Of a stretch of 64,000 nucleotides of DNA, positions 7,181 through 59,714 are shown one piece after another. The position numbers were made by a program, and so were the translations under genes. Position 1 is the stretch's first letter. Each line of letters begins with the position of its first letter. Origin of the DNA: Solwaraspora sp. WMMD406 (GTDB taxonomy: Bacteria > Actinomycetota > Actinomycetes > Mycobacteriales > Micromonosporaceae); the NCBI RefSeq assembly GCF_029626025.1, contig NZ_JARUBF010000001.1:7038001-7102000 (forward strand). The letters are read 5' to 3'. The notes below the pieces were generated by a model that was not told the DNA's origin, made no database searches, and worked only from the letters and a program-made list of their open reading frames with translations.

Positions 7181-9149
7181 CCACGTGCGTGGGGAGGACG
7201 TGTGCAGCCGCTTGGCGAACCGGTCCGCCGGCGGAACACCCCCACGTGCGTGGGGAGGACCGTCCACTGGGGGCGCTGGCGAAACCTGCGGCCGGAACAC
7301 CCCACGTGCGTGGGGAGGACCGGGACCTGTCCCTCCTGGTCGACGCCAAGAGCGGAACACCCCCACCTGCGTGGGGAGGACCAACGGTTCGTCTCGCCAT
7401 TCCCTTTTCCTGCCGGAACACCCCCACGTGCGTGGGGAGGACCCGTCATCCTCGCGCCTCCGTCGTCTCTGTCGCGGAACACCCCCACGTGCGTGGGGAG
7501 GACGCCGCGCCGCCCGCTTTGATCTTGTCCCAGCACGGAACACCCCCACGTGCGTGGGGAGGACCACAGAAGACGAAAGTTGTTCGCCCTGTCCGACGGA
7601 ACACCCCCACGTGCGTGGGGAGGACGCGATCATCTCGTCGCCGGGAATAATTCCAGCGGAACACCCCCACGTGCGTGGGGAGGACCGCCCATGGGACGAC
7701 GGCGAACACGCACCCCACGGAACACCCCCACGTGCGTGGGGAGGACTAACAGGCCGGGAGAGACCCTATGCCGAACACCGGAACACCCCCACGTGCGTGG
7801 GGAGGATGTGGACGGCTTGACGCCGCCCTGACTGGCCGGCGGAACACCCCCACGTGCGTGGGGAGGACCCCACACCGCGACCACCTGAAGTGTTGCAACA
7901 CGGAACACCCCCACGTGCGTGGGGAGGACTCGGCGACCGCCGCCCGGTGCTCGAGGATCTCCGGAACACCCCCACGTGCGTGGGGAGGACAGCTGCGGAT
8001 CGGTCGGCGCGGGCTTGCCCGTCGGAACACCCCCACGTGCGTGGGGAGGACCGAAGAAGGCTCGCGACGGCTGGCCGAAGGTCCGGAACACCCCCACGTG
8101 CGTGGGGAGGACGCTCCCAGAGGCTCTATCGAGCACCAGCTCTTACGGAACACCCCCACGTGCGTGGGGAGGACATCGCCGCCACCGCCCGGTCGACCGC
8201 CTGCTGCGGAACACCCCACGTGCGTGGGGAGGACTACGACGTGCTCATGTGAAGATGAGCGAGTACCGGAACACCCCCACGTGCGTGGGGAGGACGTCGG
8301 AGTGTTCGGACCAGGCCCGGGCGAACTCGGAACACCCCCACGTGCGTGGGGAGGACTTCGCACCCAGCGGCACCGATCTGCCGCTGACCGGAACACCCCC
8401 ACGTGCGTGGGGAGGACGATGCCGGTCTCACGCGAGATCTGGTTGCGGCCGGAACACCCCCACGTGCGTGGGGAGGACGCGGACCCGCCGATGATGAAGA
8501 CGTTCCCATCCGGAACACCCCCACGTGCGTGGGGAGGACTCGTCCGCCGCGCACCAGGCCGCATTGAGAGACGGAACACCCCCACGTGCGTGGGGAGGAC
8601 CTGACGTGGCGGTCTCCCGTGTGGCCCTGCAGCGGAACACCCCCACGTGCGTGGGGAGGACCGCTCGGTCTCGGCGATCTCCTTGTCGAGCTTCGGAACA
8701 CCCCCACGTGCGTGGGGAGGACGGCACGCAGATCATCCAGGGTGAGGCTGCTGTCGGAACACCCCCACGTGCGTGGGGAGGACGACTTGGCGCGCGCCGA
8801 GCAGGCCGTGTTCGACGGAACACCCCCACGTGCGTGGGGAGGACGACAACCCGAGAGAGAAGGGAGGAGTCTTCAACGGAACACCCCCACGTGCGTGGGG
8901 AGGACGATGGTCCTGCCTGCCCCATAGTTCGTCTTGCCGGAACACCCCCACGTGCGTGGGGAGGACCCATGCCTGCAGCCGGTCCAGGTCCAGGGCGGCG
9001 GAACACCCCCACGTGCGTGGGGAGGACGCGGCTGCCACCGGTTGACCTGGTACGACCGCCGGAACACCCCCACGTGCGTGGGGAGGACAGGTCAACGGTC
9101 AGGCCGAGCTTCGCCGCTTTCGGAACACCCCCACGTGCGTGGGGAGGAC
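7181..9149 (-). CRISPR. CRISPR array A (type I-E system 1), about 33 repeats
   Basis: Read on the minus strand, the unit is a 28-nt repeat beginning GTCCTCCCCACGCACG and ending TGGGGGTGTTCC, with 33-nt spacers (61-nt period). From 7233 to 9122 there are about 32 full repeats, plus a 19-nt truncated one at 7181-7199, giving about 32 spacers. Every repeat is followed by G, so the effective repeat is 29 nt ending TTCCG. Variants: a 27-nt repeat at 7294, another near 8209, and a C for G in the repeat starting at 7354. The stem CCCCACG/CGTGGGG fits Cas6e processing. The leader-proximal end is at 9149, next to cas2; the distal end is interrupted at repeat position 19 by IS-like sequence. Confidence 0.98.
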
Positions 9150-9162
9150 CCTTCGCGACCTG
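9150..9162 (-). promoter_or_regulatory. Leader-end motif of array A (very short leader)
   Basis: Reading toward the first repeat the sequence is CAGGTCGCGAAGG, the same motif that ends the other three leaders. Only 18 bp separate the repeat from the cas2 stop, so any further leader must overlap cas2. The A-rich segment found in the array B and II-B leaders is missing. Confidence 0.6.
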
Positions 9163-9167
9163 GGGTT

Positions 9168-9506
9168 CTACCAGTCGTCCGGCCAGCTTTCGTCAGCGGT
9201 GGTGTCGAGGTTCTGTGGTTCGAGGGGGGTCATGGCGACGAGGGTGAGTCCGTCGAAATCGATTGGGCGGCGTCGGCGTTCGCCTGCGGTGCGCAGGGTG
9301 AAGCCTTGTTCGGTGTTGTCGGGGTGGATGAGGACGGCTGCGCCATCGCCGACGACGGCGCTCGCTGCTTTCCACAGTTCGTCGCGGACTTTTGCTGACA
9401 GGGTGCCGACGAACATGCCGGGGGTGACTTCCATCATCCAGCGGCTGAGGGCGCCTCGGAGGTGGTCGGGTACGGCGGTGGTGGCGAGGACGACCATTGA
9501 CGCCAT
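9168..9506 (-). CDS. cas2: Cas2 (type I-E), system 1
   Basis: 112 residues beginning MASMVVLATTAVPDHLRG, with the I-E Cas2 signature around LSRWMMEVTPGMFVG and a C-terminal FTLRTAGERRR segment. Cas2 dimers bridge two Cas1 dimers to form the spacer integrase. The start may be the first Met or the Met at residue 4. It begins three bases after the cas1 stop and is the last gene of the cas operon. Compared with the 97-residue Cas2 of system 2 it has an extra acidic tail (LDTTADESWPDDW), and its coding end runs into the place where a leader would be expected, 18 bp from array A. Confidence 0.93.
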   Translation of the reverse strand: MASMVVLATTAVPDHLRGALSRWMMEVTPGMFVGTLSAKVRDELWKAASAVVGDGAAVLIHPDNTEQGFTLRTAGERRRRPIDFDGLTLVAMTPLEPQNLDTTADESWPDDW

Positions 9507-9509
9507 GGT

Positions 9510-10472
9510 TCAGTCCCAGGGGTCGGTGCCGTAGTTGACTCCGGAGGGCATGGAGCCGGTGTCGGGGTCCCAGAGGGAGGTGATCTCGGCTGCGGGTTGC
9601 CGTTGTGCGACGGCGTTGTCTGGGTCAAGGAGCTGCTGGATGTCGGTAACGATGGTCGGCATCAGTTTCAGCAGGCGGAACTGGTCGCGGAGTTTGCGTC
9701 GGACGTCGCGTTCGGGTTGGGCTGAGGTGCTCATGGAGAAGGCGAGTGGCACGGTGACCTTCGCCTTGTAGAGGTCGGCGACGTCGTAGACGAAGGCGTG
9801 TTGGGTGCCGCTGTGGACGAAGCCAAGTGCTGGTGAGCATCCGAGGGCGAGGACGACGGCGTGGACGACTCCGTATAGGCAGGCGCTGGCGGCGGACAGG
9901 GCCAGGTTCACGGGGTCCTGGGTGTCCCAGGCGTCGGGGTCGTAGTTGCGGCGAAATTTTCCGGTGCGGTACTTCTGGGCGAGGAGCCGGTAGAGGGCTT
10001 TCATGCGCTGGCCTTCCATGCCGCGCAGTTGTGCCAGGGTGGTGCCGTCGGGGACGGGTTCACCGAATCGGCGTTCGTACATGTGTGTCGCGACTTGTAG
10101 TCGTTGGCCGTCGTCGGCCCAGCAGCGGACTTGTTTCTCGAGCCAGGTGGTGGTGAGGGAGGTGGGGGTGATGCCTGCGTAGGAACGGACGACGCCGGAG
10201 CCGACACAGACGATGGTGGTGCCGTGTCGGGCGAGTGTGGACATGGCGCGGTGGGTGATGGAGGTGCCGGGGCCGAGGAGGAGACAGCTGATGGCGGCGG
10301 TGGGCAGGTAGACGCGTTCGACGCCTTTGGGGGTGTCGACCTGGGCGAGGACTCCGGTGTCGTCCTGGACGATGCGGACGATGTCGGCGTACAGGAAGCT
10401 GAGGGAGTCCGCGACCCTGGGGAGCATGGCCAGGGTCGGGGCCGCGAGCCGGCGGCGTGCGGTGGAGGTCAT
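9510..10472 (-). CDS. cas1: Cas1 integrase (type I-E), system 1
   Basis: 320 residues from ATG 10472, which overlaps the cas6e stop as ATGA. Cas1 is the metal-dependent nuclease-integrase that inserts protospacers at the leader-repeat junction. The catalytic residues fit the family: Glu153 in RGMEGQR, His220 in GFVHSG and Asp233 in YDVADLYKA. The N-terminal beta region contains the usual LLLGPGTSIT segment. Length is typical for I-E Cas1. A longer in-frame extension upstream overlaps cas6e in another frame and was not accepted. Confidence 0.95.
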   Translation of the reverse strand: MTSTARRRLAAPTLAMLPRVADSLSFLYADIVRIVQDDTGVLAQVDTPKGVERVYLPTAAISCLLLGPGTSITHRAMSTLARHGTTIVCVGSGVVRSYAGITPTSLTTTWLEKQVRCWADDGQRLQVATHMYERRFGEPVPDGTTLAQLRGMEGQRMKALYRLLAQKYRTGKFRRNYDPDAWDTQDPVNLALSAASACLYGVVHAVVLALGCSPALGFVHSGTQHAFVYDVADLYKAKVTVPLAFSMSTSAQPERDVRRKLRDQFRLLKLMPTIVTDIQQLLDPDNAVAQRQPAAEITSLWDPDTGSMPSGVNYGTDPWD

Positions 10473-11089
10473 CGCGCGGGAGCCAGGCTGAGTAGTCCGC
10501 AGCCGAAGGAGCGACCGCGTCCGATGCCGGACATGACGGCGGCGCGTGCCTGGTCGGGGTCGGAGATGAACGCGTGGCCTTCGAACAGGGTGATGGCGTG
10601 GCGGACGGGGATCGTGCGGCCGACCGCGGCGGGTTGTGGTTGGGCGTTGATCAGGCGCAGGGTCAGTCCGTGGGCGTCGGCTTTGCGGTGCCACCACTGT
10701 TCGGCGTGTGAGCCGGACAGAGCTACTACTTTGCCGGCGTTGTCGCCTTTCCACGCGCGTTTCGACGCGTTGGCGGCGATCCGGTAGTGCACGGCCATCC
10801 CGGTGGTCAGGGCGTCGAGCAGTGGGGAGATGTCGCGGGTCTGGACGGTGCCGTAGCCGTCGGGCAGCCGGCCGGGGTCGGGTGCCATGGTGGTCTGGAT
10901 CAGCAGTGCCGGGCCGGTGGTGGTGTGGTCGAGCCGGAACAGCACGCCGGCCTGGTGGCGTGGCTGGTCGCCCAGGTTGTCCGGCACTAGTGACATCACC
11001 CTGCGGTGAACGGCGGTGACGTCGCGAAGGTCGCGGCGTGCAGCAGGGTGTCGCAGGTCGGGTGAGATCCGGGTCAGCCAGGCGGTCAC
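10469..11089 (-). CDS. cas6e: Cas6e (CasE/Cse3) crRNA endoribonuclease, system 1
   Basis: 206 residues from GTG 11089 (VTAWLTRISPDLRHPAARR), overlapping the cas5e stop as GTGA. A conserved histidine lies in the N-terminal region (VTAVHRRVMSLV), matching the catalytic His position of Cas6e. The C-terminus has the glycine-rich RNA-binding loop GIGRGRSFGCGLLSLAP. It should cut system 1 repeat transcripts at the base of the CCCCACG hairpin and remain on the crRNA 3' handle in Cascade. The upstream in-frame extension to 11152 is an arginine-rich shadow of cas5e. Confidence 0.93.
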   Translation of the reverse strand: MTAWLTRISPDLRHPAARRDLRDVTAVHRRVMSLVPDNLGDQPRHQAGVLFRLDHTTTGPALLIQTTMAPDPGRLPDGYGTVQTRDISPLLDALTTGMAVHYRIAANASKRAWKGDNAGKVVALSGSHAEQWWHRKADAHGLTLRLINAQPQPAAVGRTIPVRHAITLFEGHAFISDPDQARAAVMSGIGRGRSFGCGLLSLAPAR

Positions 11090-11844
11090 GTTCCGGCTCC
11101 TTGCAGGTATGCGTCGAGAGCGTCCAGATAGTGGGCCCCGGTGCCGGCGCACAGATCGGCCGGCAGGGCGCGGGTGGTGATGTGAACCTGGCGGGTGAGG
11201 TATCGGCGCCGGTGGGGGTGCAGGTCCACGGGGACATCGTTGAGGGTCATCCGGCTCGCGGCGCCGTCGCCGCCGGGTGTCTCGGTGACGAAGTCGACCG
11301 GCACGGTGGCCTCGTCGTCCGCCGGGCGGCGGCGGTGCAGTGGGAGGTCGTCGAGGCGGTCGGCCGCGTCGCTGATCGGGCCGGTCAGGAGGAAGGGGTG
11401 TTCCACCGGGCAGGACCGGCGTCCGAGGTAGGGGGCCCAGACGGGGTTGGTCAGCGCCTCGTGTATGCGGGTGATGAGGGTGTCTGGGCCGGTGACAGCG
11501 ACGGTGAACACGGCGTCGGCGAGGTAGTAGCGGCGGGAGACGATCGTCGCGGTGCCGGGTTGGCGTCGTTTGCCCTCGGCGGTCGGCACGGTCCGGTCGG
11601 TGGGCAGGCCGCCGCCGACGGTGTGGAAGTCGTACATGAGTGTTCCGGGCCGGTCGACGCGGATCGTGAAGTGCGTCGCGGCGAGGTCGTCGATCGGCTC
11701 GCCGCGGCGTCGTCCGAGGGCGGCGGCGATGAGGCCGGTCATCGCCGAGCGGGTGGGGACGGTGGCGGTGTCCCGGACGCTGAAGGTGCTGTGGTCGCCC
11801 CAGGACTGCATCGGTCCGGCCAGCCGCAGCAGCAGACCGGTCAC
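11086..11844 (-). CDS. cas5e: Cas5e (CasD) Cascade subunit, system 1
   Basis: 252 residues from GTG 11844 (VTGLLLRLAGPMQSWGDHS), overlapping the cas7e stop as GTGA. LRLAGPMQSWG is the hallmark N-terminus of Cas5e, followed by PTRSAMTGLIAAALGRRRG. The mid-protein contains the usual YDFHTV and RRYYLADAVF segments. Cas5e caps the 5' handle of the crRNA and joins Cse1 to the Cas7 backbone. The order cse1-cse2-cas7-cas5-cas6 supports the call. Confidence 0.95.
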   Translation of the reverse strand: MTGLLLRLAGPMQSWGDHSTFSVRDTATVPTRSAMTGLIAAALGRRRGEPIDDLAATHFTIRVDRPGTLMYDFHTVGGGLPTDRTVPTAEGKRRQPGTATIVSRRYYLADAVFTVAVTGPDTLITRIHEALTNPVWAPYLGRRSCPVEHPFLLTGPISDAADRLDDLPLHRRRPADDEATVPVDFVTETPGGDGAASRMTLNDVPVDLHPHRRRYLTRQVHITTRALPADLCAGTGAHYLDALDAYLQGAGT

Positions 11845-12983
11845 CGCGTCCTCACATGGTCGACGGCGGCGGTGATCAGGCTGTCGAAGCTTGGGCAGGC
11901 GTCGCCGAGGTGTTCCAGCCCCTTGTCGTCGATCGTGGCGTGGCCGTGGAAGATCCGGCCGCGCTCGCCGAGGAGCCGGTGGATCCGATTGGCGTAGTCG
12001 GCGAGTCGTTGGCGCGACGCGTCGGCGTAGCCGCTGTCCCACGATGCGCGTACCGGGGTCTCGAAGGCGGCGGCCAGGGATACCGGCCGGTCGGCCCGGA
12101 CCGTGATGTAGGCCAGGTCGGGGACCGTAAACGGTGCGGTGGAGTTTTTCTTGGCCTGCGGCATGGCGGTGATGAACGCCGACAGGAACGCCGCGGTGAG
12201 CTCGATCGCCGTGGCACGGTCGTCGAGGTTGGCGACGAGGTCGTCGAGGTTGACGCTGGCGTACCGGTAGAACGTACCGGCGCTGAACTCGGCGCTGTTC
12301 ATGTGCCCGCTGCCGGTCTGGTCGGCGTCGGCTTTGAGGTCGTCCACTGCGGTGAAGAAGTCGACCTGCGGGTCGGTGGCGTGGGTGGTGAACGCGTGGG
12401 CGACCTGGACAGCGCCGTCGACGTTGGTGCCGGGCAGCTCCGCCAGCATCCGCCCGAACAGGTTGATCACGTCGTTGCGGCGGCCCATCACCTCGCGGAC
12501 GCCGTCGGCCGGTAGCGGCGCTTCCCCCTTCTTGAGTTTGACCGTCCCCGCCCGTAGACCGGTGAGCCGTTCACGGTGCTCGACACACAGGTCGGCCAGC
12601 TCGTCGAAGGCCCGCTCGGGCAGGTAGAACAGCACCTGCGCCTCACCGGTGTCCTTGTCGACCTTGAAACCGTCGACCTTAACCGCGATCGTGGTGAGTG
12701 TGGCCATGACCTGCGCCGCCGCGTAGGTTGCCAGCTCGGGCTCCCAGCCCCGATCGGTCAGACGCGTCTGCACGGCCTGCGGCAGGCGCCGGGTGCGCTT
12801 GGCCGCGTCGCCCGAGGAGGCCTCCAGCTCTTCCCGGACGGCGCGTTTCCAGCATTGGCTGGACACGCGGGTCCGTTCGGCGTATCCGAACCGCACCGTC
12901 TTCGGCGAGCCCAGGTCATCGCGGTTGAGGTTGGCGTACGGAACGGTCTGCAGCAGGTGGATCTCGACGTATCGGGCGGTCAT
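11841..12983 (-). CDS. cas7e: Cas7e (CasC/Cse4) Cascade backbone, system 1
   Basis: 380 residues from ATG 12983, preceded by GGAGGA. The N-terminus MTARYVEIHLLQTVPYANLNRDD and the following TRVSSQCWKRAVRE are diagnostic for Cas7e; FFTAVDDL and YRYASVNLDDL are further conserved segments. Six copies would polymerise along the crRNA. It overlaps cse2 by four bases (ATGA) and cas5e by four (GTGA), indicating tight translational coupling. An upstream in-frame start at 13064 would add an arginine/proline-rich leader from the cse2 region and was rejected. Confidence 0.96.
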   Translation of the reverse strand: MTARYVEIHLLQTVPYANLNRDDLGSPKTVRFGYAERTRVSSQCWKRAVREELEASSGDAAKRTRRLPQAVQTRLTDRGWEPELATYAAAQVMATLTTIAVKVDGFKVDKDTGEAQVLFYLPERAFDELADLCVEHRERLTGLRAGTVKLKKGEAPLPADGVREVMGRRNDVINLFGRMLAELPGTNVDGAVQVAHAFTTHATDPQVDFFTAVDDLKADADQTGSGHMNSAEFSAGTFYRYASVNLDDLVANLDDRATAIELTAAFLSAFITAMPQAKKNSTAPFTVPDLAYITVRADRPVSLAAAFETPVRASWDSGYADASRQRLADYANRIHRLLGERGRIFHGHATIDDKGLEHLGDACPSFDSLITAAVDHVRTR

Positions 12984-13645
12984 GCTGATTCCTCCAGGTT
13001 GGGGTCGCGCCGCGCGGCGCGGCGGTCGGCTTGGTGCAGGACGCGGTAGAACGACTGAAGCCACCGTTTGGCGACCCAGTCACGGCGGTACCGCCACTGG
13101 CAGAGATCCTCGAGAAGCTGTGCCCAGTTCACCTCGACCTCGACCGCGCCGATGTAGCGGACGACGCCGGCCAGCTGCTGGTACACGCCCGGATAGCCTT
13201 GCCGGACCAGCAGATGCAGCCGCTTCTCGGCGGCGGCCCGGTTCATCGCCCGACGGCCTGTGCCCGGCCGGCACACCGCCCACGCCAGCGACGCCCCCAG
13301 ATTGGCCCTGGTGGGCGGCCCGCCGTCAGCGCCCGGCCCGTCGGTTTCCTCAGTGACCTCATCGACGTCCTGTCCAGAGGTCTCACTAGCCGTGTCGGTG
13401 TCCGCCCGGTCCCGGGTGGCCCCGGCGATCATCGCCGCCACCGCGTAGTAGGCGTACTCGTGCTCTCTGGACACCCCGGCGGGTAGCAGCGGCGCGACGA
13501 CCGCGTGCATCGTGTGTGCCTGCTCCGGGGGGCGACGCAGACCGCGCCGTAACGCGGCCCGCTGGCCGCGGTCACGGGCGCACCGCTCGGTGACCCTGCT
13601 GACGAACCTGTCAGACGGCCGTTGTTCGACATCTGTGGATGTCAC
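12980..13645 (-). CDS. cse2: Cse2 (CasB, Cas11e) Cascade small subunit, system 1
   Basis: 221 residues from GTG 13645, overlapping the cse1 stop (GTGA). The helical small-subunit pattern is visible: the AMNRAAAEKRLHLLVRQ helix, then VNWAQLLEDLCQWR and WLQSFYRV, all typical of Cse2. An acidic linker (about 80-105, DTASETSGQDVDEVTEETD) interrupts the N-terminal domain and is not part of the core fold. Two copies normally stabilise the R-loop and non-target strand in Cascade. Identified from family motifs and its place between cse1 and cas7e. Confidence 0.92.
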   Translation of the reverse strand: MTSTDVEQRPSDRFVSRVTERCARDRGQRAALRRGLRRPPEQAHTMHAVVAPLLPAGVSREHEYAYYAVAAMIAGATRDRADTDTASETSGQDVDEVTEETDGPGADGGPPTRANLGASLAWAVCRPGTGRRAMNRAAAEKRLHLLVRQGYPGVYQQLAGVVRYIGAVEVEVNWAQLLEDLCQWRYRRDWVAKRWLQSFYRVLHQADRRAARRDPNLEESA

Positions 13646-15126
13646 GTGGCGGATCCTTTCTTCGCTGGAGTGGACAGCAGCCGGTGCGCCGTCTGAACGG
13701 CTCGCACGATCCGGGGTGGACTCGCCTCACCGTCCGCGGCGTAGTCGATGGCCTCGTGCCCGAGGCGGGCGAACGCCCGGCCGCCGTCGGTGAACCGGCC
13801 CTCACCGACGTGCTTCCAGAACACCGCCTCCGCGCGCGCCCAGTAGTACGCCTCGCCCGTGCGAGCCCACGGGCCGTCGCGGTCCTTCACGTTGGCCACG
13901 TCCCGCCACGCCTGCCGCAACGACGTGCCCACCCGCCGGCCGATCGTCTCCGCCGCCCGGGTCAACACGGCCACCCCGTCAGCCGTGACCGGGTCACGCT
14001 CCCGAAGCCACCCCAGGACCGGTGGCGTCACCGCCGTGAACCACTGCCGGTCCTTGGCCTGCCCGTCCTGGTCGAACCCGTACGCCCGTATCCGCCCGTC
14101 CAGCCCGAGATCCGCCGCGGTGATCATGATGTCGGGGCGATGAGACGTGATCTCGCTGCTACCGCCCAGCAGGGCATCGACGTCACGCCACAACGCCCGG
14201 GAGCCGTCGGCCGGAAGCTGATACCAGCCGCCCTCCTTTTTCTGCCGCCGCACCACATACGGGTCGTCCTGCTCCGGGCCGGGAAGACGCCACGACCAGG
14301 TCACGTAGGCGTCCGTCACCGCCTCCCCAGCCCCGTCGGGCACAAGCAGCACCGCGTGCCGTGCCCGACCGGTCAACGCCCCGCACGGCCACGACGCCGA
14401 CCACGGAACAGCGAGCGGATCCGGCAGCTCATCCCGCTCCCAGGGACACAGATCGGGCTCCTCGTTCTGCCCCGTCCTCCCGGGCGGAACCCCCACGACC
14501 AGTGACTCGAACAAGTTCTCGCCGAGCGGGTGGTACGACATGGCACCCCGCAACGGCCCAGCGTTGCTGTTGGCGAACCGTTGACCCGCCACCTCACGAC
14601 TGCTGCACCGGCCCGACGCGCCGTAATACAACTGCGCGATCAGATACCAGGCAGCCTCCCCCGCCGGCAGCGCCACCGCGTCAGCGTCCGTGTGATGTCC
14701 GAACCACACCTGCGTGTTCCCGGCCGGTCGGTCGAACACCAACTTGTTCACACCCGACGACCTCGGACACTCCACGGCCAGCCGAGGATCCTGCAACCAC
14801 GGCCGGACAGAGTCGAACAGATCGAACCGTCCCCGGTACTTCGCGAAATAGGCGTCCACCTCCTCCGCGACAAACGCCCCCTGATCCAGCACCAGATCCT
14901 GACGCCGCCGCCACTGCGCCCCGCCCACAGAGTCCAGCCCGGTCACCCGGGCAGTGATCGCGTACAGGATCCGCCACAGCCCCGACGCCGCCGGCGGCAC
15001 CGGCAACACCATGTCCTCGAAGCACGCCGCGCGGACAAACAACTCCCGGAGCCCGACCAGCACGGACTCACCGCGGGCCACCACCGGAATCCACGGCCGA
15101 TCGACCAGATCGAACGATTTCGTCAT
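13642..15126 (-). CDS. cse1: Cse1 (CasA, Cas8e) large subunit, system 1
   Basis: 494 residues from ATG 15126. The N-terminus MTKSFDLVDRPWIPVV is the standard Cse1 opening. The RFDLFDSVRPWLQDP and FGHHTDADAVALP segments follow, then the WYLIAQLYYGASGRC region. Cse1 recognises the PAM and recruits Cas3. Length is close to the family norm and 58 residues shorter than Cse1 of system 2. It is the first gene of a seven-gene run ending at cas2, with overlaps or gaps of three bases or less throughout. A separate promoter is likely because 544 bp separate it from cas3. Confidence 0.94.
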   Translation of the reverse strand: MTKSFDLVDRPWIPVVARGESVLVGLRELFVRAACFEDMVLPVPPAASGLWRILYAITARVTGLDSVGGAQWRRRQDLVLDQGAFVAEEVDAYFAKYRGRFDLFDSVRPWLQDPRLAVECPRSSGVNKLVFDRPAGNTQVWFGHHTDADAVALPAGEAAWYLIAQLYYGASGRCSSREVAGQRFANSNAGPLRGAMSYHPLGENLFESLVVGVPPGRTGQNEEPDLCPWERDELPDPLAVPWSASWPCGALTGRARHAVLLVPDGAGEAVTDAYVTWSWRLPGPEQDDPYVVRRQKKEGGWYQLPADGSRALWRDVDALLGGSSEITSHRPDIMITAADLGLDGRIRAYGFDQDGQAKDRQWFTAVTPPVLGWLRERDPVTADGVAVLTRAAETIGRRVGTSLRQAWRDVANVKDRDGPWARTGEAYYWARAEAVFWKHVGEGRFTDGGRAFARLGHEAIDYAADGEASPPRIVRAVQTAHRLLSTPAKKGSAT

Positions 15127-48665: not shown

Positions 48666-48675
48666 CTTAGAGGAC

Positions 48676-49622: not shown

Positions 49623-49770
49623 ACGATCCCGGGGTGAAATGCGGCGAAGCCGGGCGGGCATGCGGCTGCCGGTATGCTGCCTTTCTGGGTCTAGTCGGGC
49701 ATTTTGCGCTGCTGGGGCCGGTATGTGAATCGGCCGCTACTGGCGCGAAGATGAAGCAAACGTCCAGTTA

Positions 49771-50664
49771 GACCGTGTGTCAGTAGGGGTTGTTGCTGGT
49801 CAACAGGTTGAGTCGGTTGGCGCGGCGGTAGCAGATCAGAGCGCATGCCAGGTGGAGGAATCCGAGGTAGTGGGAAGCCTTGCGTTCGTAGCGGCGGACC
49901 AGCCGCCGGAACCGAGTCATCCATTCGAGGCAGCGTTCGATGACGTAGCGGTGCCGGCCCAGCCGCTTCGACGACTCGATGCCCTTGCGGGCGATCCGCG
50001 CGACGATGTTGCGTTCGCGCAGGAGGTCGCGGCATTCGGGGTAGTCGTAGCCCTTGTCGCCGTGCAGTTTGCCCGGTCGTCTACGCGGCCGGCCGACCGG
50101 TTGACGCACCGGCGTGATGCCGTCGACCATGTCCTCGAGCATCCGATGGTCGTTGAGGTTCGCGGCGGAGACGCCCACGTGCAGCGGCAACCCGCCACGG
50201 TCACCGACGGCGTGGATCTTGGAGCCGGGCTTGCCCCGGTCCACCGGGCTTGGCCCGGTCAGGTCCCCCTTTTCACCGCGCGCACGTGCATGCTGTCGAC
50301 ACTCACCCTCGACCAGTCGATCCGCCCGGCCGCGCCGAGGACATCGAGCGTCGCCCGGTGCAGGGCGGACATCACCCCGGCCTCGACCCATTCGGCGAAC
50401 CGACGGTGCGCGGTGCGCCAGTGCACCGGGAACGAGGCGGGCAGACTGCGCCACGAGCAGCCGGACTCCAACACGTACAGGATCGCCGCGAGCATGGCGC
50501 GGTCATCGGTTCGCCGCCGGCCGCCGCCCTGATGTCTTTCCGGATGCGGCGGCAGCAACGGCCGCGCGAGGTGCCACAACGCGTCGGGGCAGTACTTCTC
50601 CACGTCATCCACACCACGTCAACGAATGACCTTGAACTTCAACAACCCCAAACGACACACGGTC
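49771..50664 (-). mobile_element. IS5-family element 2 (IS427-like), TTA target duplication
   Basis: 894 bp with imperfect inverted repeats starting GACCGTGTGTC and containing GGGGTTGTTG. TTA is duplicated at 49768-49770 and 50665-50667, the TNA-type target of this group. It encodes two overlapping transposase frames on the minus strand. Confidence 0.92.
49780..50612 (-). CDS. IS5-family (IS427-type) transposase, two overlapping frames
   Basis: The first frame (50612 to 50259) reads MDDVEKYCPDALWHLARPLL ... WSRVSVDSMHVRAVKRGT and stops; the second frame, ending at 49780, continues as DLTGPSPVDRGKPGSKIHAV with the rest of the core (LHGDKGYDYPEC, YVIERCLEWMTRF). The junction is a minus-strand run AAAAGGGGG (50265-50273 on the plus strand). 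A -1 shift there gives the normal continuous protein VRAVKRGDLTGPSP. Programmed frameshifting is usual in this IS group, so this is probably functional rather than broken. The DDE residues are all present. Confidence 0.88.
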
Positions 50665-50697
50665 TTAGAGCGTGTCACCGCTTGCACGTCATGCATG

Positions 50698-53600
50698 TCG
50701 TCCCCGCCCGCGCGGGGGTCTTCCTGCGTTTCAGCCGGCACCACCACCATCTCGGCGGTCGTCCCCGCCCGCGCGGGGGTCTTCCCTCGACCCAAGGGTC
50801 GTCCATGCTGCCGCTGATGTCGTCCCCGCCCGCGCGGGGGTCTTCCCGGAGTTGGCCGGGACCCGCCGGTTGACCAGGGGTCGTCCCCGCCCGCGCGGGG
50901 GTCTTCCGTCGAGCGACGGCATCTCCGAGATCCACGTCGTGTCGTCCCCGCCCGCGCGGGGGTCTTCCGTGGACGAGCTGCTGGCCGGGGTGGATGTGAC
51001 CGTCGTCCCCGCCCGCGCGGGGGTCTTCCCCTGGCGGTGTCGTGCGCCCGCTGCAACGAATTGTCGTCCCCGCCCGCGCGGGGGTCTTCCCGTCGTGACG
51101 TCCTTCTCCTCCACCTCGCTGGAGTCGTCCCCGCCCGCGCGGGGGTCTTCCGCAGGCGCTCATCTACGCGTACGCGCTGGCCTGGTCGTCCCCGCCCGCG
51201 CGGGGGTCTTCCCGTGGTCGACGTCGGAGGGACCCAGCTCACCGAGTCGTCCCCGCCCGCGCGGGGGGTCTTCCCGCTGTCGTCGTGCTGCCCGCCGGCC
51301 TGTACCGGTCGTCCCCGCCCGCGCGGGGGTCTTCCGGTGCTCCGGCTGCGGCACCGCCTGGACGACGTGTCGTCCCCGCCCGCGCGGGGGTCTTCCTCCG
51401 TGGCCACTCTCGGCCGGCGCGTGGGTACCGTCGTCCCCGCCCGCGCGGGGGTCTTCCGGGCCCGGCCGCAGGCACGGCCGAGCCCCTCAAGTCGTCCCCG
51501 CCCGCGCGGGGGGTCTTCCCGTCGGGCTGACGGTCACCCAGTTCGCCATCCGGTCGTCCCCGCCCGCGCGGGGGTCTTCCCGACTGCCGCTCTCTCGCGT
51601 GCGCTTCGGTGGCGTCGTCCCCGCCCGCGCGGGGGTCTTCCCCTCGCTGCGAGCGGGTCCGCCGACGTGCACACGTCGTCCCCGCCCGCGCGGGGGTCTT
51701 CCCAACAAGGGCGGCGTCGGCAAGACCGGCATCACGTCGTCCCCGCCCGCGCGGGGGTCTTCCGAGCGGGCCATCGACCGAGGCCGCGACCAGTGCGTCG
51801 TCCCCGCCCGCGCGGGGGTCTTCCGGTCTCTCGGATCGAGACCGGCGACCTGTGGCCGTCGTCCCCGCCCGCGCGGGGGTCTTCCCCGGTGCCGGCGACG
51901 TTCACCCATGTCACCCGTGTCGTCCCCGCCCGCGCGGGGGTCTTCCACCGTGGAAGTGCGTCTCCGCGCCGCTCTGGAAGTCGTCCCCGCCCGCGCGGGG
52001 GTCTTCCCCGATCGTCCCGGGTGCGCTGGCGAGTATGCCGGTCGTCCCCGCCCGCGCGGGGGTCTTCCATCGGCTCTGAGGCTGTCTGAACGGGCAAAAC
52101 CGTCGTCCCCGCCCGCGCGGGGGTCTTCCCGCGCTGGGCGTCGACCCGGAGGAGCTCGGGATGTCGTCCCCGCCCGCGCGGGGGTCTTCCCCGATTCGTC
52201 ATGACGCTCATGGATGGAACGGTGTCGTCCCCGCCCGCGCGGGGGTCTTCCCGAGCAGGAGCAGATCAGCGACGTCAGCCAGGGGTCGTCCCCGCCCGCG
52301 CGGGGGTCTTCCCAGCGTCGGGTCTCCGCCCAGCTCCTTGCCCGTGTCGTCCCCGCCCGCGCGGGGGTCTTCCATGATGCTCAAAGTCGGCGCGATCCTC
52401 GTCGCCGTCGTCCCCGCCCGCGCGGGGGTCTTCCGTTCGGTAGGCCGAGGACGTGGGCGGCCAGGGCGTCGTCCCCGCCCGCGCGGGGGTCTTCCGCCAG
52501 CCAGGGCGGACGCTACCGCCAAAGGGGAGTCGTCCCCGCCCGCGCGGGGGTCTTCCGGACGCCGACACGCCTGGGCGTACGGAGAACTGGTCGTCCCCGC
52601 CCGCGCGGGGGTCTTCCGCTGGCCGCCGTGCTGGCCACCGTGATCCGGCAGTCGTCCCCGCCCGCGCGGGGGTCTTCCGGTCGAGGCGCGGCGGCGCGAG
52701 ACGGCCCGGTAGTCGTCCCCGCCCGCGCGGGGGTCTTCCCCGGTGGCGGGCCGGGTGGTGCCCGGAGTGCGGGTCGTCCCCGCCCGCGCGGGGGTCTTCC
52801 CTCGACGTCCGTCACGACCAGCAGCCCGGCCCGGTCGTCCCCGCCCGCGCGGGGGTCTTCCCGTGCACGGCGCGGTGATCGACGAGCTGCACGTGTCGTC
52901 CCCGCCCGCGCGGGGGTCTTCCACGATGCTGTCGACGACAGTGCAAACAGCATTGGTCGTCCCCGCCCGCGCGGGGGTCTTCCCACCGCACCGTACGCAC
53001 GTGCGGACGTGGTCCCGTCGTCCCCGCCCGCGCGGGGGTCTTCCCTCCTCAGTGGATTTCGTGGGATGGCCCCGCCGGTCGTCCCCGCCCGCGCGGGGGT
53101 CTTCCCGCACTCATCGCCGTCGCCTGGCCGGACGAACCCTCGTCCCCGCCCGCGCGGGGGTCTTCCCCTGGGTGACGACGCTTTTGCCGGAGCCGGTGAG
53201 TCGTCCCCGCCCGCGCGGGGGTCTTCCGGGCGGACAACCCCGATGACATCACCGATTCCGGTCGTCCCCGCCCGCGCGGGGGTCTTCCCTCCTCGGGACC
53301 GGGTTCGCCGCCGGCGCCGTCGTCGTCCCCGCCCGCGCGGGGGTCTTCCCCCCGGGGGGTGACCGTATGGCGTCGGTGTGGGTCGTCCCCGCCCGCGCGG
53401 GGGTCTTCCTGCCACCTGCACCTCTGTCGCGGTGCCAGCGACGTCGTCCCCGCCCGCGCGGGGGTCTTCCGTGTGCGTCACCCTGTCCGGCGGACCTTGA
53501 TCGGTCGTCCCCGCCCGCGCGGGGGTCTTCCGCCGCCGAGGGAGGCCAGCTTGGGTGTCTTGCGGTCGTCCCCGCCCGCGCGGGGGTCTTCCATTGGGCG

Positions 53601-54690
53601 GTCTCGATGATCAGAGCGCCGACCCGTCGTCCCCGCCCGCGCGGGGGTCTTCCCATGGCCAGGTGCGCGTCGGACAGGTGGTCGATGTCGTCCCCGCCCG
53701 CGCGGGGGTCTTCCCTGACCAGGTTCCCCGTCGCGTTCTTCTACGAGGTCGTCCCCGCCCGCGCGGGGGTCTTCCGTAGTCGAGCGGATCGGTGTGGCTG
53801 TCCCGGACGTCGTCCCCGCCCGCGCGGGGGTCTTCCTCTGCATCGGCATGCCGCCATCGGGCACCGGATGTCGTCCCCGCCCGCGCGGGGGTCTTCCCAC
53901 CTTGAACGTGATGTCCTGCCGGATGCCGACGTCGTCCCCGCCCGCGCGGGGGTCTTCCCAGCGCCCAGCCGACGATCACCATGCCGCCGAGGTCGTCCCC
54001 GCCCGCGCGGGGGTCTTCCGGGAGACGCATGCCTGATCTGCTTGCCGGGTCGGTCGTCCCCGCCCGCGCGGGGGTCTTCCCACCTTGAACGTGATGTCCT
54101 GCCGGATGCCGACGTCGTCCCCGCCCGCGCGGGGGTCTTCCCAGCGCCCAGCCGACGATCACCATGCCGCCGAGGTCGTCCCCGCCCGCGCGGGGGTCTT
54201 CCGGGTTCCCGATGGCGTCGAGCATCGCGGCGACGGTCGTCCCCGCCCGCGCGGGGGTCTTCCTCATGAATGACCACCGGCTCGCGGACTGCAGAAGTCG
54301 TCCCCGCACGCGCGGGGGTCTTCCCTGGGCCAGGACCTGGGAGAACTGGATGCTGCGGTCGTCCCCGCCCGCGCGGCGGTCTTCCGCCGGTCGTGGACCT
54401 GCTCTACTCCGGTGGGGCGTCGTCCCCGCCCGCGCGGGGGTCTTCCGGCGGGATCGTCGAGGGGATCATGGTGGTTCCCGTCGTCCCCGCCCGCGCGGGG
54501 GTCTTCCGCTCAGCGCGCGAGCGGCCTCAGGCGCGTTGTCGTCGTCCCCGCCCGCGCGGGGGTCTTCCTCGTGGCCGGGCTGTCTGGGTAGCCGGCTTGC
54601 CGTCGTCCCCGCCCGCGCGGGGGTCTTCCGGCGTCGGTGATACCGGCTTCGTTGGCGATGTTGTCGTCCCCGCCCGCGCGGGGGTCTTCC
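50698..54690 (+). CRISPR. CRISPR array II-B, segment 2 (system 2), about 66 repeats
   Basis: Forward system 2 repeats from 50698 to 54663, exactly 65 periods of 61 nt. Repeats are very uniform; a one-base-longer variant occurs near 51247 and 51490, and changes near 54301 (CACGCG) and 54361 (GGCGGTC). Spacers 53898-53930 and 53959-53991 recur at 54081-54113 and 54142-54174, a three-unit tandem duplication. The final spacer is split by the IS21 element at 54716. Confidence 0.98.
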
Positions 54691-54778
54691 CCTAGTGAAC
54701 CGGGTCAACCAGGTCTGTCGTCGCTTCCTGAAAACTGACCCACCAGGAGTCTCCGAAAACTGACCCATCCTGCTGTAT

Positions 54779-56050
54779 GTGAGGAGGGTGCTGAAAGTGG
54801 AGGACTGGGCTGAAATACGCCGGTTGCATCGTGCGGAGGGCGTACCCATCAGGGAGATCGCCCGCCGGCTGGGAGTGGCCCGCAACACGGTCCGGGCGGC
54901 GTTGGCCAGCGACCGGCCGCCGAAGTACGAACGTGAGCCACGAGGCTCGGTCGTCGACCCCTACGAGCCACGGATCAGGGCGTTGCTGACCGAGTGGCCA
55001 CGGATGCCCGGGCCGGTGATCGCCGAGCGGATCAAGTGGCCCTACTCGATGCCGCCGTTACGCAGACGGCTGGCGGTGATCCGGCCGGAGTACGTCGGTG
55101 TGGACCCGGTCGACCGGACCGTCTACGAGCCGGGCGAGATCGCCCAGTGCGACCTGTGGTTTCCCGACACCGCGATCCCGGTCGCGGCGGGCCAGTCACG
55201 CACGAAGCTACCGGTGCTGGTCATCACCCTGGGGTTCTCCCGGTTCATGACCGCCGTGATGATCCCGTCCCGGCAGGCCGGCGACATCCTGTCCGGGATG
55301 TGGCGGCTGATCTCGCAGCTGCGGCGGGTGCCGAAAACCCTGGTGTGGGACCGGGAATCCGCGATCGGCGGGACCGGACGGGTCTCGGCGCCGGCGGCGG
55401 CGTTCGCCGGAACCCTGGCCACGCGCATCCGGCTGGCTCCCCGCCGCGATCCGGAGTTCAAAGGCATGGTCGAACGCACCAACGGATTCCTGGAGACCTC
55501 GTTCATGCCCGGCCGGCTGTTCACCTCACCCGCCGATTTCAACACCCAGCTCGACGACTGGCTGGCCGGGGCCAACGCCCGCACCGTCCGCTCGGTCCAG
55601 GGCCGCCCGGTGGACCTGCTGGCCACCGACTACCTGTCGATGATCCCGCTGCCGCCGGTGCAACCCCCGACCGGGCTGACCAACCGCGTCCGGCTCGGAC
55701 GTGACTACTACGTCCGCGTCGACACCGTCGACTACTCCGTCGACCCGCGCTCGATCGGCCGCCTCGTCGACGTGAACGCCTCACTGGACACCGTGACGGT
55801 GTCCTGCGACGGCCAGGCCGTCGCCCACCACGACCGGTCCTGGGCCAGACACGGCCTCGTCACCGACCCGGTCCACAAGGACACCGCGCAACGCCTGCGT
55901 CAGGCCTTCACCGAGGAACGCCACCGCCGCCAGGTGTCCGTGCGCCACCACAGCGACGGTCACACCGTCGCGCTGCGGGCGCTACCGGACTACGACGCCC
56001 TGTTCGGCGTCGACTTCACCAACCTCACGACGAAAGCGAGCCACCAGTGA
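54779..56050 (+). CDS. istA: IstA transposase, IS21-family copy 2
   Basis: 423 residues, identical to the copy 1 protein. HTH (IREIARRLGVARNTV) at the N-terminus and a DDE core with AQCDLWF, VWDRESAIGG and MVERTNGFLE. GTG start at 54779; the GTG three codons later (VLKVEDWAEI) has a well-placed GAGGAGG. It overlaps istB by four bases. Confidence 0.95.
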   Translation: MRRVLKVEDWAEIRRLHRAEGVPIREIARRLGVARNTVRAALASDRPPKYEREPRGSVVDPYEPRIRALLTEWPRMPGPVIAERIKWPYSMPPLRRRLAVIRPEYVGVDPVDRTVYEPGEIAQCDLWFPDTAIPVAAGQSRTKLPVLVITLGFSRFMTAVMIPSRQAGDILSGMWRLISQLRRVPKTLVWDRESAIGGTGRVSAPAAAFAGTLATRIRLAPRRDPEFKGMVERTNGFLETSFMPGRLFTSPADFNTQLDDWLAGANARTVRSVQGRPVDLLATDYLSMIPLPPVQPPTGLTNRVRLGRDYYVRVDTVDYSVDPRSIGRLVDVNASLDTVTVSCDGQAVAHHDRSWARHGLVTDPVHKDTAQRLRQAFTEERHRRQVSVRHHSDGHTVALRALPDYDALFGVDFTNLTTKASHQ

Positions 56051-56856
56051 CCACCACCACGCCACCACGGACCAGCACACCCAGGGACGGGATGCCGTCG
56101 ATGATCTCCTACCTGACCAGAGTGCTGAAGACACCCACCATCGGCGCCGTCTGGGAGGAACTGGCCGAACAGGCCCGGGACCAGAACTGGTCCCACGAGG
56201 AGTACCTGGCCGCCCTGCTGCAACGTCAGGTCGCCGACCGGGAGTCCAAAGGCACCACGATGCGGGTCCGCACCGCCCACTTCCCCCAGGTCAAAACCCT
56301 GGAAGACTTCAACCTCGACCACCTGCCGTCGCTCCGCCGCGACGTCCTGGCCCACCTGGCCACCAGCACGTTCGTCCCCAAGGCGGAGAACGTGATCCTG
56401 CTGGGTCCACCCGGACTCGGCAAGACACACCTGGCGATCGGACTCGGCGTCAAAGCCTGCCAGGCCGGCTACTCGGTCCTGTTCGACACCGCCAGCAACT
56501 GGATCGCCCGCATCGCCGCCGCCCACCAACAGAACCGTCTGGAAGCAGAGCTGAAGAAGATCCGCCGCTACCGGCTGATCATCATCGACGAGGTCGGGTA
56601 CATCCCGTTCGACCAGGACGCCGCGAACCTGTTCTTCCAGCTGATCGCCTCACGCTACGAGGTCGGCTCGGTCATGGTCACCTCGAACCTGCCCTTCGGC
56701 CGCTGGGGCGAGACGTTCTCCGACGACGTCGTGGCCGCCGCGATGATCGACCGCCTCGTCCACCACGCCGAGGTCCTCACCCTCACCGGCGACTCCTACC
56801 GCACCCGCCAACGCCGCGAGCTCCTCGCCAAGGAAAACCGCACCAGCCGCGACTGA
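56047..56856 (+). CDS. istB: IstB ATPase, IS21-family copy 2
   Basis: 269 residues, identical to copy 1. Walker A GPPGLGKT and Walker B IIIDEVGYIP are intact. GTG start within the GTGA that overlaps the istA stop. With its istA this should be an active pair able to move either copy. Confidence 0.95.
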   Translation: MTTTTPPRTSTPRDGMPSMISYLTRVLKTPTIGAVWEELAEQARDQNWSHEEYLAALLQRQVADRESKGTTMRVRTAHFPQVKTLEDFNLDHLPSLRRDVLAHLATSTFVPKAENVILLGPPGLGKTHLAIGLGVKACQAGYSVLFDTASNWIARIAAAHQQNRLEAELKKIRRYRLIIIDEVGYIPFDQDAANLFFQLIASRYEVGSVMVTSNLPFGRWGETFSDDVVAAAMIDRLVHHAEVLTLTGDSYRTRQRRELLAKENRTSRD

Positions 56857-56933
56857 CTGACCAACCACGGGTCAAAATTCGAAGACTCATGCAGGGTTCA
56901 GATTGCCGGAGCGTTGACACAGGTCATTGACCG

Positions 56934-59714
56934 GTCGTCCCCGCCCGCGCGGGGGTCTTCCCCGGTCGCCGAGCTGGCCGGCGGGAAGATCTACGTCGTC
57001 CCCGCCCGCGCGGGGGTCTTCCGCGGGTGAGCGACCCGCCCAACCTAAGGAGACCGTCGTCCCCGCCCGCGCGGGGGTCTTCCGCGGCTGCGGACGATCG
57101 TGATGACGACGAACGACAGGTCGTCCCCGCCCGCGCGGGGTTCTTCCCCTGCGGTACGTGGTTCGGTCGCCGGACTACGAGTCGTCCCCGCCCGCGCGGG
57201 GGTCTTCCGCACCCGAGCTTCCCGCGCCCGTTCGACGTGCTGTCGTCCCCGCCCGCGCGGGGGTCTTCCGTAGTCGGCGGCGGCGATGCCTGCGGCTTCG
57301 ATGTCGTCCCCGCCCGCGCGGGGGTCTTCCCGCCCACCGGGACGAACTGTCCGCCCAGGAACGGTCGTCCCCGCCCGCGCGGGGGTCTTCCGCGCGAGCT
57401 GACCCCGAACCCCCTCGCGAAGCGGTCGTCCCCGCCCGCGCGGGGGTCTTCCTACAGCGTCCATTTCCAGGCTGTTGGGGGTCGACGTCGTCCCCGCCCG
57501 CGCGGGGGGTCTTCCGGAGGCCGCAGCATGACCGCCGACATCCGGCACGTCGTCCCCGCCCGCGCGGGGGTCTTCCTGTGTGCCGGCATGATCCGTTCGG
57601 TCGCCTCGGGTCGTCCCCGCCCGCGCGGGGGTCTTCCCCCGGTCTCGTCGTCGATGTCGACCACCGGCAAGTCGTCCCGCCCGCGCGGGGGTCTTCCCGC
57701 CGCGTCCAGGGCTTCGGCGGCGTGCCGGGCGTCGTCCCCGCCCGCGCGGGGTCTTCCCAGCTCGAACAGCAGGAGGCCCCGCCGGCCGCCGTCGTCCCCG
57801 CCCGCGCGGGGTCTTCCGGCCACCGGGGTGCACCTGCAGATCGGCACCCAGTCGTCCCCGCCCGCGCGGGGTCTTCCGCCCTCATCGGCGTACACCCAGT
57901 CCTCGTTGTCGTCGTCCCCGCCCGCGCGGGGGTCTTCCCGCCTCACCATTCCGGGCGTCCGCCACACTCGCGTCGTCCCCGCCCGCGCGGGGGTCTTCCG
58001 CGGCCGGCCTGCTCGTTCGAGCCGGGCTGTCGGTCGTCCCCGCCCGCGCGGGGGTCTTCCGCGGGCCGAGAATGCGATTTCGGCCCCCGGCGAGTCGTCC
58101 CCGCCCGCGCGGGGGTCTTCCGTGGTGCAGCGGCACCCTGGCCTTGTTGGCGAGGTCGTCCCCGCACGCGCGGGGTCTTCCGACGCGGCCGCTCAGCGGT
58201 GAGGCCCGGTCGACGCTGACGTCGTCCCCGCCCGTGCGGGGGTCTTCCCTTCGGTGGCACGGACGGCAACAGGTCGATCCGGTCGTCCCCGCCCGCGCGG
58301 GGGTCTTCCCCAGGCCGACCGGCTGTGGCACGACCGGCGGACGTCGTCCCCGCCCGCGCGGGGGTCTTCCTCCTGCAAGGAGCTGCCGGCCGGTATGCCG
58401 GTGGTCGTCCCCGCCCGCGCGGGGGTCTTCCGCAGTATCCGACCGCCACGCCGGCCCGGACCGGGTCGTCCCAGCCCGCGCGGGGGTCTTCCCACCTCTT
58501 GTTCGGCCTGGCGCTGCCCGTAGCCGTCGTCCCCGCCCCCGCGGGGGTCTTCCTTCATGCAGGTCAGAGCGGGTGCCACCCGCCCGGTCGTCCCCGCCCG
58601 CGCGGGGGTCTTCCTTCGTTGCGCAGCCGTGGCCAGTCCTGATCGAGGTCGTCCCCGCCCGCGCGGGGGTCTTCCCGCAGTGTGAGCGTCGCCCGGATCC
58701 GGTGTGCGGTCGTCCCCGCCCGCGCGGGGGTCTTCCTCCGCAAGGACGAGGAGTTCAACGCATGCCTCGGTCGTCCCCGCCCGCGCGGGGGTCTTCCGGA
58801 CGTCGTCTGAGTGCGCTTGATGACTCCGTGGTCGTCCCCGCCCGCGCGGGGGTCTTCCGCGCCAGGGCGCGTTGGGCAACCTGCTGGAGTAGTCGTCCCC
58901 GCCCGCGCGGGGGTCTTCCACTGGTTGCGTACGCGCTCGATCCGGGCGAGGCGTCGTCCCCGCCCGCGCGGGGGTCTTCCGCCCATCACGGTTGCGGTCA
59001 CCGCCAGGGTGTCGTCGTCCCCGCCCGCGCGGGGGTCTTCCGCATGGCGCCGACGACCTGGACGCCAATGTCGGGTCGTCCCCGCCCGCGCGGGGGTCTT
59101 CCGTACACGGTCAACACCGAGACCGGGCTGCGCGAGTCGTCCCCGCCCGCGCGGGGGTCTTCCCGCAGTTGGTGTGGGACCGGGTGTCAACGCTCCCGGT
59201 CGCGTGTCGTCCCCGCCCGCGCGGGGGTCTTCCGCAGACCGCCGTCGCCGAACTCGCCGCCATGTCGTCGTCCCCGCCCGCGCGGGGGTCTTCCCGCCTA
59301 CAGCTAGGCGGTGCCGGCCGACCAGTCCTGGTTGGTGTCGTCCCCGCACGCGCGGGGGTCTTCCGTGGAGATCCGGCTCTGGGCGATGCAGACCGGCGTC
59401 GTTCCCGCCCGCGCAGGGGTCTTCCGCCGCTGGACCGGATCTACGACGCCTGCCAGCGGTCGTCCCCGCCCGCGCGGGGGGTCTTCCCCACAAGGCGGCG
59501 ACCCGCACGATCCGGGACGTCGTCCCCGCCCGCGCGGGGGTCTTCCACGCCGCGGTCGTCGTCGCGGTGGAGCTCGTGGGTCGTCCCCGCCCGCGCGGGG
59601 GTCTTCCGCTGTTTCGTCGACGATCGGGCCGACTGTCGGCGGCCAGTGGATTCCAGTCCGCCGTTGACACAACGCGGTGTGGGGTACCGGTCGCCCCCGC
59701 CCGAGCAAGCCTTC
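56934..59714 (+). CRISPR. CRISPR array II-B, segment 3 (system 2), about 44 repeats plus degenerate end
   Basis: Forward system 2 repeats from 56934 to 59580. Two spacers are 42 nt instead of 33 (59164-59205 and 59295-59336). Repeats drift more here than elsewhere: GGGGTTCTTCC near 57138, several 27-nt repeats at 57730-57880, CACGCG for CCCGCG near 58160 and 59345, GTCGTTCCC near 59398. After the last good repeat (59580-59607), a 33-nt spacer and about 50 nt of other sequence, a degenerate repeat GTCGCCCCCGCCCGAG...CTTC occupies 59690-59714 as the distal terminus. Confidence 0.97.

Follow-up and report, generated by a model that had tools for sequence, protein, structure and literature searches.

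Two type I-E CRISPR-Cas systems of probably independent origin in one defence region of Solwaraspora sp. WMMD406

We describe a 64,000-nucleotide stretch of the genome of Solwaraspora sp. WMMD406 (contig NZ_JARUBF010000001.1, positions 7,038,001 to 7,102,000, hereafter the window, in which all positions without a prefix are counted), where two complete type I-E CRISPR-Cas operons stand in tandem with four arrays. Our comparisons make it probable that the locus is an accessory defence region composed of two independently acquired systems, here named A and B, each with its own integrase, repeats, Cascade and Cas3. A third type I-E system lies elsewhere in the same genome, and the arrays suggest that the three differ in the protospacer-adjacent motif (PAM) that they use.

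Two complete and diverged systems

Each operon is read leftward and sits between one leftward and one rightward array, both pointing away from it, as a reading of the raw sequence had proposed (the original prediction); all 16 cas genes are matched by Pfam or NCBIfam models. Of the catalytic motifs claimed there, those of Cas3 were found by pattern in both systems, in the form of what we take to be the HD, Walker A, DEAH/DEVH and SAT motifs.

A repeat scan of the window, tolerant to 8 mismatches in 28, returned 333 repeats and 329 intervals, 325 of which hold intact spacers and four of which are occupied by insertion sequences, in line with the four arrays and about 330 spacers announced beforehand. 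System B comprises array 1 (7172 to 9149, minus strand, 33 repeats, leader side at 9149) and array 2 (18546 to 27289, plus strand, 86 repeats in three pieces of 31, 49 and 6), and system A comprises array 3 (32202 to 37649, minus strand, 90 repeats, leader side at 37649) and array 4 (47847 to 59607, plus strand, 124 repeats in three pieces of 14, 66 and 44). The first three of these counts had been predicted exactly, while the fourth, put at about 125, is 124. Spacers are 33 nt long in 289 of the 325 cases, which fits the type I-E pattern of a palindromic 28/29-nt repeat with a spacer of about 33 nt, and exact duplicates are limited to three pairs, of which array 2 has one and array 4 the other two. 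The description of the locus as a very large immune memory holds, yet a single array of 587 spacers is already in print, the longest in CRISPRCasdb according to the part of that account available to us, which credits most bacteria with at most 50 spacers in total (PMC7145573).

The repeat of system B is GTCCTCCCCACGCACGTGGGGGTGTTCC and that of system A is GTCGTCCCCGCCCGCGCGGGGGTCTTCC; they differ at 6 of 28 positions, with no mixing within any array. An exact scan of the whole genome, using a pattern that covers both, gave 186 forward and 111 reverse copies, and the window by itself contains just as many; hence no exact copy of either repeat was found outside it, and the pattern read backwards gave 0 matches.

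The proteins of the two systems are 27-52% identical over the parts aligned by BLAST, consistent with the claim that Cas1, Cse1 and Cas3 differ clearly between the sets, and Cse2 of A found no BLAST match in Cse2 of B. Trees of Cas1 and Cse1, proposed together with that claim, were derived from 71 loci (28 named, 40 unnamed and 3 from this genome), among which Cas1 was recovered in 55 and Cse1 in 71; after length filters, 50 Cas1 and 68 Cse1 sequences entered the trees. A and B fall into separate deep clades of both trees and are sister copies in neither, which argues that no recent duplication took place, as had been supposed. In both trees the split that separates the B clade from the one containing A and the third system is supported at 100/100, with the caveat for Cas1 that the run warns of long branches meeting at this deep split. 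System A groups with Salinispora in both trees; its named relatives come from Salinispora and Micromonospora, and the Cse1 of another member of the family (G295) is nearly identical to Salinispora Cse1. System B, on the other hand, groups with loci of the same family: L121, L122 and L124 in the Cas1 tree, joined by L123 in the Cse1 tree.

A genome search gave three Cse1 loci, the third belonging to a type I-E system absent from the original prediction, 3 Mb away near 4.03 Mb (G000:C1:4024785-4054910; L066, L067), with arrays of 112, 19 and 133 repeats (264) and tblastn matches to all eight cas genes, cse2 being reached from the query of A only. In both trees it stands beside congeners, its Cse1 grouping with those of G002 and G003, and this system therefore looks resident in the genus. 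Among six congeners, three carry one Cse1 each and three carry none; since A and B were not seen in these six, both look acquired. In a wider search with PF09481, covering 354 genomes of the family, 85 had a match and 13 had two or more rows, 11 of which remain as genomes with several Cse1 rows once G240, where the matches are fragments spread over two contigs, and G026, with its three rows of identical score, are dropped. In G095 and G072, too, a single contig bears two loci no more than about 65 kb apart, drawn from other clade pairs; the pair A plus B was not found in the other genomes placed in the Cse1 tree (G054 and one locus of G298 were left unplaced).

Insertion sequences and integrity of the locus

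The four insertion sequences, absent from the original prediction, lie two in array 2 and two in array 4. Array 2 holds an IS3-family element in a gap (20406 to 21758, minus strand; transposase at 20466-21386, assigned by NF033516 and Pfam) and an IS21-family element (24706 to 26909, minus strand) inside a repeat, with a 5-bp target duplication, CGTGG. Array 4 has a gap with an IS4/5-type transposase gene (gap 48666 to 50696; gene 48709-49545, minus strand, PF13340 and PF01609) and a second IS21-family copy (54716 to 56919, plus strand) inside a spacer, with a 6-bp duplication, CAGGTC. A preference of the IS21 element for repeats was considered and rejected, given that one copy is in a repeat and the other in a spacer.

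Over 2205 aligned bases the two IS21 copies show 100% identity, and they are inverted relative to each other, a classic spot for misassembly or inversion, which is what could be said for the two systems being the product of a recent segmental duplication or of an assembly artefact. We judge such an origin highly improbable, given the low identity of the A and B proteins and their separation in the trees, and given that the window is located inside a 7.11-Mb contig of a 7.16-Mb genome. Moreover, both copies, although the obvious site for a misjoin, retain target duplications and the same repeat type on either side, making an assembly artefact unlikely. Being identical and inverted, they could exchange the array tails by inverting the 28 kb that they enclose; such recombination would mix the repeats, and no repeat mixing is seen. 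Separately, arrays 1, 3 and 4 have IS21-like ends of the TGTCAACG type at their far ends (about 7172, 32136 and 59664-59717), as if old insertions had cut the array tails.

The insertions also bear on whether the systems still work. One or both could be remnants that no longer adapt or interfere and are kept by chance, and the decay of the array tails, with 13 of the last 44 repeats of array 4 imperfect, would agree with this, as would the four insertion sequences. We nevertheless find it quite unlikely: the cas reading frames are open, the Cas3 motifs are present in both systems, in each of the four arrays the imperfect repeats are distant from the leader end, and each system has kept its own first-base signature, described below.

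First base after the repeat

The base that follows the 28-nt repeat distinguishes the three systems. It is G in 100 of 115 spacers of system B and C in 238 of 261 spacers of the third system (G in 8), while system A presents a mixture (C 105, G 71, T 21 and A 13 of 210). Fisher tests of G versus C gave 8e-19 for B against A and 6e-23 for A against the third system. Relatives behave similarly: G accounts for 75-99% in the 10 loci of the B clade that were counted (L150 excluded), C and G each reach at least 24% in every A-clade locus that has arrays (10 of 10, spread over several genera), and C ranges from 91% down to 44% in loci near the third system. Among the sources of these A-clade loci are three genomes in which Cse1 was matched once only (G295, G157 and G217, the last a 560-contig draft), so the mixture in A seems to need no second system.

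A separate observation concerns L119 and L120 in G072, which have B-like repeats with G at 92% and 96% and stand beside Cse1 of other clades; no cas1 was found in that stretch, and they are possibly arrays served by a distant system.

Protospacers and PAM assignment

We compared 3,092 spacers, from our own and related arrays, with 178 loci (2.29 Mb), consisting of 172 from IMG/VR and 6 already known as matched; all 325 spacers of the window and 261 of the third system were screened against these 2.29 Mb, nearly all of them viral contigs. Early leads pointed to prophage portal, endolysin and helicase genes, and the IMG/VR contigs were fetched using prophage portal and helicase proteins and, later, the neighbours of these. 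Counting from spacer position 2 to the end, 23, 34 and 52 spacers matched at up to 2, 3 and 4 mismatches, respectively, against 0, 0 and 1 in a reversed control.

For the PAM we used a clean clade set of 2,072 spacers, from which the 1,020 of other loci (including L119 and L120) had been dropped and L150 left out. Within it, 47 spacers have a match at up to 4 mismatches, and AA occupies positions -2/-1 in 28 of the 47; at each of the other offsets tested, on both sides, AA occurs in 0-4 of 47. Among the 28, the next base is G in eight and C in one for the B clade, C in all five for the third-system clade, and C in eight and G in six for the A clade (B versus third-system clade, p = 0.003). Among the spacers of this genome, AA stands at 6 of 13 sites for A, 3 of 3 for B and 1 of 2 for the third system. 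The arrangement is that of type I-E, an AA-type PAM whose third base becomes the last base of the repeat (28 of 47 overall and 10 of 18 for this genome). The protospacers thus suggest a PAM of AAG for B, of AAC or AAG for A and of AAC for the third-system clade, and in these alignments the first base after the repeat is shown to agree with the third PAM base beside the protospacers. That the base at -1 can be PAM-derived is already described (PMC8482600). In Salinispora and its kin, spacers of the A type match both phage sites in which AA is followed by C and sites in which it is followed by G. Because of first-position mismatches in the first five phage matches of A, we had also entertained the idea that this base is not derived from the target; it was rejected, many later matches at AAC and AAG sites being in agreement.

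Spacers resembling one and the same provirus occur in all three systems. IMGVR_UViG_2784132108, which has a portal protein 100% identical to the one in the congener G001, is matched at up to 5 mismatches by spacers 3_41, 3_42, 3_47, 3_49 and 4_28 of A, by 2_37, 2_39 and 2_60 of B, and by C2_11 and C0_36 of the third system, with AA at -2/-1 in 7 of these 10 matches.

Several observations weigh against so clean an assignment. Six of the 178 loci were pre-selected by a spacer match and the viral contigs were fetched with proteins from such loci, so the match rate, but not the PAM, is favoured over the reversed control. Numbers are small for the genome itself, where spacers matched at up to 4 mismatches amount to 13 of 210 for A, 3 of 115 for B and 2 of 259 for the third system, and the third PAM base taken alone separates A from B at p = 0.04. 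As many as 19 of the 47 protospacers have no AA, many of them being one base away from it (AG, GA). The signature itself varies in the wider clade of A and the third system (G 84% in L016, G 93% in L022, C 81% in L132), and L150, a member of the B clade in both trees, has only 28% G; here the register is probably one base late, since its repeat consensus ends in G. Finally, the A arrays supply two points on the same side of the balance. The leader ends of arrays 3 and 4 coincide over 13 and 11 bases with those of two arrays of the third system, and C opens every one of the 14 newest spacers of array 3, unlike in the rest of that array (p = 1.2e-4, in a test chosen post hoc).

Other searches gave less. 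A distant search of a phage collection with three array stretches (including neither array 1 nor the final piece of array 2 or array 4) returned almost only weak matches, apart from those to the transposase of the IS3 element, and the best spacer match was that of 3_68 to Rhodococcus phage Mbo2 (E 3e-3). The output of a plasmid collection search was swamped by arrays carried on plasmids and was not used. A gene of Gordonia phage GTE8 contains 19 nt identical to the beginning of repeat A (L070 1501-1531, E about 0.6), probably by chance. Within the genome itself, spacer 2_7 (18941-18974) is exact in a gene with a cellulose-binding domain, with CA followed by A at the PAM position, and 3_1, the newest spacer of array 3, is exact in a periplasmic-binding-protein gene, with CC followed by C; as neither site has AA, cutting is not expected. 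The search of family genomes and of self, which yielded these two exact matches and the phage leads, covered 55 of 114, 37 of 89 and 60 of 119 unique spacers and scored two candidates per genome, in this genome one or both of them being its own arrays; further self matches may exist.

Separation and cross-talk between the systems

The original prediction regarded the locus as a natural test of whether two type I-E systems can coexist without cross-talk. Repeats that are pure within arrays and a first-base signature that goes with the operon support separation at the level of repeats and PAMs without proving it, since the third system could have supplied the newest part of array 3. The leader ends shared with that system and the run of C in array 3 together leave room for feeding in trans, the run being a possible trace of either recent feeding by the third system or a single priming episode. 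The leader motif is not strictly clade-bound, a similar one being found in L148 of the B clade.

Taken to its full extent, this idea would have arrays 3 and 4 filled partly by the integrase of A and partly in trans by the third system (supplying AAC) or by B (supplying AAG), so that the mixed first base of A would itself be a record of cross-talk. The match of the A leader ends (GGTCA[AG]CAAGT) to those of the third system and the newest 14 spacers of array 3 speak for it, as does spacer 4_57, which equals the third-system spacer C2_54 save for one mismatch and in the same register, a shared site that is also expected if both systems use AAC. We consider it rather unlikely, however, because the mixed signature is found in all A-clade loci with arrays, including those of the three single-Cse1 genomes, and because A-type spacers from Salinispora and related genomes meet both AAC and AAG phage sites. 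Array 4 has no run of C beyond its first 5 spacers and the heads of A-clade relatives are mixed, which leaves the head of array 3 as the only such run. Cross-talk as the sole source of the mixed base in A was rejected on the evidence of the 10 A-clade loci. From the mixture in all of these and from the two kinds of phage site, a relaxed PAM looks like a property of the A clade.

Proposed mode of action

Returning to two independently acquired systems, each equipped with a Cas1-Cas2 integrase, a repeat pair, a Cascade and a Cas3 of its own, we suggest that each Cas1-Cas2 would keep its own choice of PAM and integrate mainly at its own leader and repeat, that each Cas6e would cut its own repeat, and that the Cse1 of each system would tolerate the PAMs chosen by its integrase. 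The same phages would in that case be sampled at different sites by the different systems, and altering a single PAM or protospacer would not necessarily let a phage escape all three. As a tentative extension, somewhat less probable than not, three co-resident type I-E systems could partition PAM space (AAG; AAC or AAG; AAC) while sharing a phage lineage, so that single PAM changes would bring no escape from all of them, and the third system may in addition have written AAC spacers into the newest part of array 3, an array of system A, by way of the shared leader motif.

Gene content of the operons and other CRISPR loci

All cas genes of the window are on the minus strand. In system B they are cas2e (9168 to 9506, TIGR01873), cas1e (9510 to 10478, TIGR03638 with 345.9 bits and relatives in PDB; its start codon is not fixed and the frame is open to 11237), cas6e (10469 to 11152), cas5e (11086 to 12042, TIGR01868, given as the longest open reading frame), cas7e (11841 to 13064, PF09344), cse2 (12980 to 13645, TIGR02548), cse1/cas8e (13642 to 15126, PF09481 and TIGR02547) and cas3 (15671 to 18442, HD nuclease and helicase motifs). 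The weakest match of all is that of Cas6e of B, with 40.8 bits to TIGR01907 against a cut-off of 45.2, and was accepted together with its position in the operon and 27% identity to Cas6e of A.

In system A they are cas2e (37757 to 38047, PF09707, start not fixed), cas1e (38047 to 39039, TIGR03638 with 359.7 bits and relatives in PDB), cas6e (39041 to 39781, PF08798), cas5e (39778 to 40764, PF09704, longest open reading frame), cas7e (40605 to 41756, PF09344), cse2 (41753 to 42409, PF09485), cse1/cas8e (42411 to 44105, PF09481 and TIGR02547) and cas3 (44673 to 47702, Cas3 models and motifs, start not fixed).

At the leader end, a CAGGTC...AAG motif is kept in all four arrays. Only 18 bp (9150-9167) separate array 1 from the stop codon of cas2, so that this array is almost without a leader of its own. 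Adjoining array 4, a gene at 60776-63388 carries a TOTE conflict-system primase domain together with helicase domains.

Elsewhere in the genome, a Cas1 locus near 3.63 Mb (G000:C1:3614786-3638511) has 54 + 43 = 97 repeats of 36 nt, its Cas1 having Cas4g/Cas1g as the best NCBIfam model, in a 280-residue piece that remains below the cut-off. Another, near 4.67 Mb (G000:C1:4672951-4673913), has 13 repeats, and a Cas1 fragment with a stop near 3.21 Mb (G000:C1:3214586-3221081) has 8 + 3 + 8 = 19. Summed over the genome stretches scanned, which are those at cas1 genes, the repeats number 726.

Comparison with known systems

The locus belongs to a known kind, as both multiple type I-E systems in one actinomycete and type I-E PAMs of AAC and AAG are already in print. 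A close parallel is Salinispora (PMC4223832), where, in the portion of the study at hand, paired arrays flank the cas genes and spacers match elements with various PAMs, and where 11 strains with two I-E or I-C arrays were judged to be independent acquisitions. The likeness extends to array pairs flanking cas and to the closest relatives of system A, which are those of Salinispora; in contrast to the analysis here, the portion at hand does not assign PAMs to individual systems. Two type I-E systems per strain are also reported in Corynebacterium striatum (PMC9944170), in addition to Salinispora.

Streptomyces avermitilis, as far as the accessible part of the account goes, has one type I-E system with one PAM (PMC4762764), whereas here there are two, and three in the genome, with AAG, AAC/AAG and AAC. 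Actinoalloteichus hoggarensis has eight systems, five of them type I-E, and is alike in holding several of this subtype in one actinomycete; unlike the present work, the account, in the part available, has no PAM or spacer comparison (PMC12231136). The PAM catalogue of Vink et al. 2021 (PMC8482600) includes AAC, AAG, AAN, AAT and others for type I-E, and the type I-E PAM of Vibrio cholerae is given as AAY (PMC7677007). In the sections of the catalogue that we could draw on, the co-occurring DNA-targeting pairs are I-A/I-B and I-B/I-C, with no I-E/I-E pair of different PAMs. According to the available part of a further survey (PMC12814883), type I-E loci often have two arrays, near cas and on both sides, and type I-E is found as the only system 2.6-fold more commonly than expected, a tendency to which this genome is the opposite. 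Our searches of the open-licence literature of PubMed Central yielded no account of co-resident type I-E systems with different PAMs against one phage lineage.

Implications

What deserves to be followed in this locus is that co-resident type I-E systems directed at a single phage lineage seem to be divided by PAM. Even where no protospacer is at hand, the third PAM base can apparently be read from the first base after the repeat, which would allow a quick PAM survey across actinobacterial type I-E systems. Why bacteria keep several immune systems of one subtype is an unsettled question, and the arrays described here suggest a testable answer, namely that the systems differ in PAM requirement and share targets. 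If the two systems of the window use partly different PAMs, as the stored spacers suggest, a virus that escapes one might still be caught by the other.

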